NCBI GenBank assembly: GCA_001592805.2
Contig: CP051143.1
Span: forward strand, 1,364,001 to 1,428,000
Source: Peltaster fructicola
Lineage: Eukaryota; Ascomycota; Dothideomycetes
Direction of reading: 5' to 3'
DNA: 64,000 bases
Shown here: positions 6,790 through 7,402 of the stretch, in pieces
Position numbering within the stretch: position 1 is the first letter of the stretch
Layout: each line of letters begins with the position of its first letter
Position numbers and translations under genes: made by a program
The notes under the pieces: generated by a model
Told to the model about the DNA's origin: nothing
Databases searched by the model: none
The model's input: the letters and a program-made list of their open reading frames with translations, nothing else

Positions 6790-6796
6790 GGCCCTG

Positions 6797-6807
6797 TGGC
6801 GCAATGG
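6797..6807 (+). promoter_or_regulatory. Pol III A box of the tRNA gene
   Basis: TGGCGCAATGG fits the TRGYNNARNGG consensus at every position and spans tRNA positions 8-19. Confidence 0.85.
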
Positions 6808-6856
6808 TTAGCGCATCGGACTTCTATGAGTAGAGTCTGCCATCCGAAGGCTGTGG

Positions 6857-6909
6857 GTATGTAGAAATCTTCGCCTCATGGTTGGATTTTGTGTTGACTC
6901 AAAGATCAG
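6857..6909 (+). other. 53-nt GT-AG (spliceosomal-type) insert in the tRNA T stem
   Basis: The insert begins GTATGT and ends GATCAG. A TTGAC branch-like motif lies at 6899-6900 flanking positions, with its A about a dozen nt before the terminal AG. These are the signals of the protein-gene introns in this window, and the length (53 nt) matches them. Removal joins GTGG to GTTCGAAT and rebuilds a perfect 5-bp T stem. A weak internal ATCTT/AAGAT complementarity exists, but I do not see a bulge-helix-bulge. Splicing by the spliceosome is inferred from sequence alone. Confidence 0.75.
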
Positions 6910-6919
6910 GTTCGAATCC
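6909..6919 (+). promoter_or_regulatory. Pol III B box of the tRNA gene
   Basis: GGTTCGAATCC is a perfect B box. Its first G is the last base of the T-stem insert, so the box is intact in the DNA as well as in the spliced RNA. Confidence 0.85.
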
Positions 6920-6930
6920 CACCAGGGTCA

Positions 6931-7402
6931 CATTTTTGCCTGTAGCGGCATTGAACACAGTCTCGCATGTTTGGGAGACCTTTTCGATCACCATCGTGGT
7001 CTGCCAGGATGCGTGGTAGTCTAATTTTGGTCCCCTGCCTGAAAGTTCGGACGAAAACCGCTTGATGGCGCACAGATTCCTCTTTGCGTACGGACCGCGA
7101 CTGCGACACCATTGGCTGCGGAGGTCTGATGTAGGATCCCAAGAATCGTCGACTGGCCACAGGGTACCTACAAAATCATGCGATAGCTGGTACATAACAC
7201 AGCAGATAAAGTCCAGACGAAAGTCGAAGTTTGCGACGCTCTCCGGTGTGACTCAACAGCTAACAGAGCTCAACTACCAGTCGTGGGCCAACAGTACAGC
7301 TTGACGAGCACATCGAAGTCAGCGATCATGACAAGTCACACATTGACAGGTCTTTGAACATTCGTCATATAGAGCTGACCCGCTCCCACTACAAGATGTC
7401 TC
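6931..7402. other. Intergenic, tRNA to DUF3638 gene
   Basis: About 470 bp holding the tRNA terminator and the 3' flank of the giant minus-strand gene. Minus-strand open frames here start or end inside the antisense of the tRNA and are not genes. Confidence 0.6.
6933..6937 (+). terminator. Pol III T5 terminator
   Basis: TTTTT begins three bases after the tRNA discriminator base, as expected for a Pol III gene. Confidence 0.8.

Follow-up and report, generated by a model that had tools for sequence, protein, structure and literature searches.

Putative spliceosomal introns in the single-copy tRNA-Arg(UCU) gene and eight other nuclear tRNA genes of the fungus Peltaster fructicola

A tRNA-Arg(UCU) gene in three pieces

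The window, by which we mean the whole 64-kb stretch of DNA analysed here, has a GC content of 51.8% and carries a tRNA-Arg(UCU) gene that is interrupted twice (Table 1). An uninterrupted open reading frame lies beside it, with its end 473 bp past the tRNA gene. At the Rfam gathering threshold, tRNA was the only match in the window, and no group I or group II catalytic core was found at that threshold. An insert of 53 nt is in any case too short for an intron of either group.

An earlier note on this DNA had claimed that a 53-nt GT-AG insert splits the T stem of this gene, that removing it together with a 15-nt anticodon intron yields a 73-nt tRNA, and that the anticodon is UCU. Each of these claims was confirmed. 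The cloverleaf is the minimum-energy structure of the fully spliced 73-mer (-30.6 kcal/mol, z -2.49), and ARAGORN pairs all four of its stems without a gap. With the 53-nt insert removed, ARAGORN reports a tRNA-Arg(tct) with a 15-nt intron, which it places slightly further on than we do, a near-equivalent slid cut; when this intron is retained, the minimum-energy fold deviates in the anticodon arm. The unspliced gene was taken by ARAGORN for a false tRNA-Glu, and a tRNA finder at default settings detected nothing.

The two interruptions differ in their location. The 15-nt intron sits at the canonical position 37/38, and the 53-nt insert sits elsewhere, between T-stem positions 52 and 53. None of the 3585 single excisions of 30–120 nt gave a better cloverleaf score than the 53-nt cut; the best score was shared by four cuts, which are this cut slid base by base, and one of the four is GT-AG. 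The rough combined chance for this insert is 1e-5. In the DNA the insert leaves the B box whole, its last G taking the place of G52. We also considered whether the insert is a repeat or transposon-like, and rejected this, as a 301-base query around the gene matched only itself.

A gene for SEN2, one of the subunits of the tRNA-splicing endonuclease, lies in the window as well, at a distance of 33 kb from the split tRNA gene. Those homologues that have a name are called Sen2 or tsp-2; the nearest named matches are in Lecanosticta (59% identity), Pseudocercospora (55%), and Zasmidium (57%), and the best match overall has 71% identity.

Table 1 Features of the tRNA-Arg(UCU) locus, in window positions, and of the split tRNA genes
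Feature	Position	Strand	Insert site	Remarks
tRNA-Arg(UCU) gene, unspliced, 141 bp	6790..6930	+		Rfam RF00005, 45.1 bits; sole genomic locus found, in three pieces
Exon 1: acceptor 5' strand, D arm, anticodon arm up to position 37	6790..6826	+		
A box TGGCGCAATGG	6797..6807	+		0 mismatches to TRGYNNARNGG
Canonical SEN-type intron, 15 nt	6827..6841	+	37/38	
Exon 2: position 38 up to T-stem position 52	6842..6856	+		
GT-AG insert, 53 nt, putative spliceosomal intron	6857..6909	+		structure scan; intron score in top 0.06% of controls
5' splice site GTATGT	6857..6862	+		hexamer common to a protein intron (region L090)
TTTT within insert	6887..6890	+		possible weak Pol III stop
Branch-like TTGAC	6894..6898	+		A at 6897, 12 nt before insert end; pentamer also in a protein intron (region L100)
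3' splice site CAG	6907..6909	+		
B box GGTTCGAATCC	6909..6919	+		
Exon 3: T-stem position 53 up to discriminator base	6910..6930	+		
TTTTT, Pol III terminator-like	6933..6937	+		at +3
Open reading frame, 3044 aa	7403-16537	-		
SEN2, 431 aa	40198..41493	-		PF01974, 1.7e-16
tRNA-Arg(UCU)			T stem	insert 53 nt
tRNA-Ile(AAU)	L030		D loop	insert 50 nt
tRNA-Leu(AAG)	L064		D loop	insert 49 nt
tRNA-Pro(AGG)	L065		D stem, 3' strand	insert 49 nt
tRNA-Glu(CUC)	L102		anticodon stem, 5' strand	insert 51 nt
tRNA-Ser(CGA)	L029 1501-1688 (G000:C1:1824027-1824214)	-	anticodon stem, 3' strand	apparently two inserts, of 48 and 49 nt, around a one-nucleotide exon (C)
tRNA-Ser(GCU)	L072		variable arm start	insert 54 nt
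tRNA-Gln(UUG)	L068		T stem	insert 51 nt
tRNA-Arg(UCG)	L028 (1501-1623)		T loop	insert 51 nt

Nine of 39 decoded tRNA genes are split

The genome assembly comprises 18,987,130 bases in five contigs, and all four of the contig ends that we fetched (L126-L129) carry TAGGG/CCCTA telomere repeats. The genome paper, in the parts of it available, gives 18.99 Mb, five chromosomes, 51.95% GC, and 44 tRNA genes; it calls the TAGGG telomere new for fungi, and those parts do not mention interrupted tRNAs (PMC7181583).

Our tRNA inventory draws on an Rfam search (29 matches, of which 28 passed the cut-off; 63 of 380 candidates scored), a B-box-plus-terminator pattern (120 matches, with tRNAs taken among the matches listed), a second such pattern (40 matches, all inspected), three D-arm patterns, and 44 fetched regions, of which ten held new tRNA genes, one an already known gene, and 33 none that was recognisable. 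This led to 39 decoded nuclear tRNA genes: 30 ordinary and nine split. The nine hold ten GT-AG inserts of 48–54 nt at non-canonical places (Table 1).

The Rfam and pattern inventory contained no tRNA for Ala AGC, Val AAC, His, Asn, Cys, or Pro UGG, and is incomplete because these six expected tRNAs are absent from it. The Rfam search missed real genes, such as Val UAC at 47.9 bits. The six may be further split genes or may merely have been missed by the patterns; the 39 decoded genes and the six absent ones together come close to the published 44.

Once spliced, all nine split genes were recognised as tRNAs by ARAGORN, with all four stems paired without a gap in Arg(UCU), Ile(AAU), and Glu(CUC). 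The unspliced forms, in comparison, gave nothing in four cases, a wrong tRNA in four, and the same anticodon in one (Ser(GCU), with a poor stem). For spliced Leu, ARAGORN read TAA and our own scan AAG, and in spliced Ser(CGA) it found a weak stem and left a 10-nt intron unused. This canonical intron is our own reading and comes in addition to the two inserts; ARAGORN places an anticodon-arm intron in Arg(UCU), Leu(AAG), Pro(AGG), Gln(UUG), Ser(GCU), and Glu(CUC) too. We rejected an assignment of the L028 gene to Pro(CGG) and named it Arg(UCG) on the ARAGORN result; by eye, four of its seven acceptor pairs are G-U after splicing.

Two side observations concern the inventory. A gene in another region (L021 1501-1602, minus strand) is by our own reading, made by eye, a tRNA-Ile(UAU) in which positions 31 and 39 form a T-T mismatch; its canonical intron of 30 nt contains CCTATATGG, complementary to the anticodon-loop letters TATA. 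In addition, a first run of at least four T lies within 60 nt downstream of 38 of the 39 genes; the next base is G in 37 of them, and the next two are GC in 24 (for example at 6933-6939 of the window), counts that include some genes found through a pattern requiring TTTTG.

Most inserts carry the signals of protein-gene introns

To place the inserts, we scored all single excisions of each gene by cloverleaf pairing and invariant bases, using a scoring scheme of our own. The GT-AG cut was best or tied best in six of the nine genes. In Glu(CUC) it was the single best of 2765 excisions; ties at the best score numbered 23 of 1919 in Ile, four of 1830 in Arg(UCG), two of 3270 in Gln, and, owing to the variable arm, 129 of 7505 in Ser(GCU). 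Other cuts scored better in Leu(AAG) (4 of 4355) and Pro(AGG) (8 of 10004), by at most about 0.6 units in either gene. For Ser(CGA), the best of 48 pairs of GT-AG cuts removes 48 nt and 49 nt around the single C and leaves a perfect AATGA/TCATT stem; a 107-nt cut that does not begin with GT scores 0.64 higher than this two-intron reading (25.35 versus 24.71). We rejected a single 98-nt GT-AG intron in this gene, since the two-intron reading gives the 81-nt length of Ser(AGA) and the perfect stem.

For the eight genes other than Ser(CGA), the product of the per-gene chances is about 10^-32. This figure is rough, as it takes no account of the way in which the genes were chosen and treats cuts with a better score as ties; we use it solely to conclude that chance is out of the question.

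We then asked how closely the inserts resemble introns of protein genes. Permissive motif counts in the fetched DNA showed no excess over reversed controls (34 versus 32 in the window; 83 versus 87), and stricter patterns showed a weak excess in two cases (26 versus 15; 12 versus 5) and 26 versus 21 in a third. Motif counting alone is thus not evidence, and we therefore built an intron motif score from 11 protein introns of the same genome, which we identified by eye in actin- and CCT-family genes, between exons with HMM matches; the 8829 GT..AG segments of the window served as controls. Nine of the ten inserts fell within the top 1.6% of the controls: Arg(UCU), Pro, and Gln at 0.06%, Glu at 0.07%, Leu, Ile, and the first Ser(CGA) intron at 0.5–0.7%, and Arg(UCG) and Ser(GCU) at 1.4–1.6%. 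The second Ser(CGA) intron ranked lowest, in the top 8.9%. The earlier note had likened the GTATGT, TTGAC, and CAG signals of the Arg(UCU) insert to those of protein-gene introns.

The length of the inserts (48–54 nt) is also close to that of the 11 protein introns (44–50 nt), and the available text of the genome paper gives a median protein intron of 50 bp and 1.36 introns per gene (PMC7181583). Some features set the two groups apart: three of the ten inserts and none of the 11 protein introns end in AAG, and CTRAT branch motifs were seen by eye in four inserts and in none of the 11.

The remaining tRNA introns look different. Among 38 scanned genes, 27 have an intron by ARAGORN, and none of these 27, which span 7–69 nt, is GT-AG as placed by that program, even when slid by two bases. 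ARAGORN misplaced the intron in several ordinary genes, whose anticodons we re-read by hand; none of seven re-read introns, hand-placed after position 37, begins with GT.

Split genes include sole readers of common codons

The earlier note had called for a check on intact tRNA-Arg(UCU) copies elsewhere in the genome. A genome-wide BLAST with the spliced form revealed none, only the one locus in pieces, and the same search with spliced Ile(AAU) likewise found a single locus, in pieces, and no intact copy; these are the two of the nine split genes for which single-copy status was checked by BLAST. Under standard decoding, no tRNA other than Arg(UCU) reads AGA, and AUU and AUC are both left to Ile(AAU). 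In seven conserved open reading frames (SEN2 and six CCT/Hsp60-family stretches; 3412 codons), AGA occurs 32 times, ATT 58 times, and ATC 149 times. Leu(AAG), Pro(AGG), Gln(UUG), and Ser(GCU) would be sole readers too if no other copy exists, judging by the absence of such copies from lists that are incomplete.

The A box matches its consensus fully in eight of the nine split genes; in Ile, the insert cuts the end of the box, which has one mismatch. The B box, scored against its standard consensus, has no mismatch in five genes and two in four; in Arg(UCG), the mismatches arise because the insert cuts the box. A run of at least four T lies within +9 in eight genes and at +29 in Glu. Such retention of the A and B boxes is as expected if transcription had to continue. 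We examined and rejected the TTTT within the Arg(UCU) insert as proof of a dead gene, as the exons of Gln(UUG), Arg(UCG), and Lys(UUU) contain TTTT too.

Discussion

Overall, these results suggest that positions 6857-6909 are very probably a spliceosomal (U2-type, GT-AG) intron, that the nuclear tRNA-Arg(UCU) gene around it very probably works and is single-copy, and that nine tRNA genes together have at least ten introns of this kind. With spliceosomal introns in Pol III tRNA genes, several pre-tRNAs would therefore need both the spliceosome and the SEN complex. The earlier note had raised this possibility for the Arg(UCU) precursor and knew of no described arrangement of the kind; the recurrence of the putative arrangement in eight more tRNA genes supports the idea, and our literature searches, too, returned no earlier report.

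Three other explanations deserve consideration. The inserts could be additional tRNA-type introns that SEN cuts at bulge-helix-bulge (BHB) motifs, as in Cyanidioschyzon merolae, with the GT-AG ends being incidental. Non-canonical introns in the D and T arms are indeed known from C. merolae and from nucleomorphs, according to the portions of the two sources available (PMC4090602; PMC9602550), and the fungus has a SEN2 gene. However, all ten inserts are GT-AG and fall in one narrow length class, as opposed to the 27 other introns with their broad span and no GT-AG member. Moreover, a strict, self-written test for two 3-nt bulges flanking a 4-bp helix found the 4-bp core in none of the ten inserts, either at their borders or at slid equivalents; zero to three of the four pairs formed, as in most random cuts. 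We consider this explanation highly improbable.

We give equally little credence to the idea that the split genes are pseudogenes or freshly broken, with working copies elsewhere or missed by the assembly or the searches. The absence of six expected tRNAs from the inventory and the G-U-rich acceptor stem of Arg(UCG), seen by eye, would fit this idea, but BLAST found no intact copy of either of the two genes checked, Arg(UCU) and Ile(AAU). The exons are also undecayed, with all four stems pairing in spliced Arg(UCU), Ile(AAU), and Glu(CUC), and decay would not be expected to produce GT-AG ends ten times. A tRNA pseudogene is recognised by decayed exons alongside intact paralogues, and Arg(UCU) does not show this combination. 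Finally, the inserts could be real spliceosomal introns with a mainly regulatory role, their retention switching the tRNA off, or the gene could be partly read by Pol II. The TTTT in the Arg(UCU) insert could make full-length Pol III transcription inefficient; yet the split genes include sole readers of common codons, and we find a regulatory role the hardest of the three to credit.

Returning to spliceosomal introns in working tRNA genes, we propose the following course for Arg(UCU). Pol III would transcribe the whole gene, for which the A and B boxes and the T run are in place. The spliceosome would then excise the intron of about 50 nt in the nucleus, guided by the GT, branch, and AG signals seen in the DNA. 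The T stem and the body of the tRNA could now fold, after which SEN and tRNA ligase would remove the 15-nt anticodon intron. We infer that the spliceosome precedes SEN because SEN measures from the tRNA body, a ruler mechanism described in the accessible part of a published source (PMC4090602). As for their origin, the introns may have arisen when existing, spliced introns inserted anew, a route that has been put forward for small RNA genes of other kinds in fungi; this is conjecture, as is the notion that, with about one copy per tRNA, there was no intact sister to repair from and the introns were kept.

If this reading is correct, the tRNAs of P. fructicola likely make its translation dependent on the spliceosome. 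Of about 44 nuclear tRNA genes, at least nine would be split, including the only readers found for AGA and for AUU/AUC, and several precursors would need two unrelated machines in a fixed order, the spliceosome and then SEN. Ser(CGA) would undergo three excisions, with two spliceosomal introns around a one-nucleotide exon. As far as the sequence tells, two splicing pathways would meet on one molecule. This makes several questions testable: whether Pol III transcripts whose structured exons measure 14–21 nt can be processed by the spliceosome, which of the two machines acts first, and by what route introns get into non-coding genes that exist in a single copy. There is also a practical consequence, as software that expects a tRNA intron at 37/38 can overlook such genes or give them a wrong label, which ARAGORN did for eight of the nine unspliced forms.

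Spliceosomal introns as such are well known; what appears to be new is tRNA as the host RNA class. A full-text search, with most subscription papers outside its reach, found no earlier report of spliceosomal introns in tRNA genes. Indeed, the available part of one review states the opposite rule (PMC13149111).

The closest parallels come from other fungal RNAs. Spliceosomal introns reportedly occur in fungal U6 snRNA genes, as is said of the work of Tani and Ohshima in 1989 and of Canzler in 2016. Fungal U6 introns are about 50 nt long and have canonical splice sites. What they share with the inserts is an intron of mRNA type within a small fungal RNA made by Pol III; the difference is that the host is here a tRNA, that nine genes are putatively affected at once, and that several precursors would also need SEN. 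The one P. fructicola U6 match over the cut-off (region L081, G000:C5:1564325-1564425, minus strand) contains no sister intron. By its title, a 1993 paper by Rogers is said to describe an mRNA-type intron in the 18S rDNA of deuteromycetes, again an mRNA-type intron in a fungal non-mRNA gene, although in an rRNA transcribed by Pol I. Compared with canonical tRNA introns at 37/38, which Arg(UCU) and the majority of the tRNA genes here carry as well, the inserts sit elsewhere and bear mRNA splice signals.

Introns in fungal U3 snoRNA genes resemble the inserts in that a non-coding RNA with a defined structure is interrupted and the splice and branch sites are canonical; in the part of the source available, 133 of 138 U3 introns lie in the 5' half of one stem-loop (PMC5832005), whereas the tRNA inserts are spread over the D loop, D stem, anticodon stem, variable arm, T stem, and T loop. 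Lastly, C. merolae and nucleomorphs also have D- and T-arm introns, sometimes together with an anticodon intron. As far as the accessible parts of the two papers go, C. merolae has BHB motifs, and the inserts of a nucleomorph measure 3–24 nt (PMC4090602; PMC9602550). The inserts of P. fructicola, by contrast, are without a BHB core, measure 48–54 nt, and begin with GT and end with AG.
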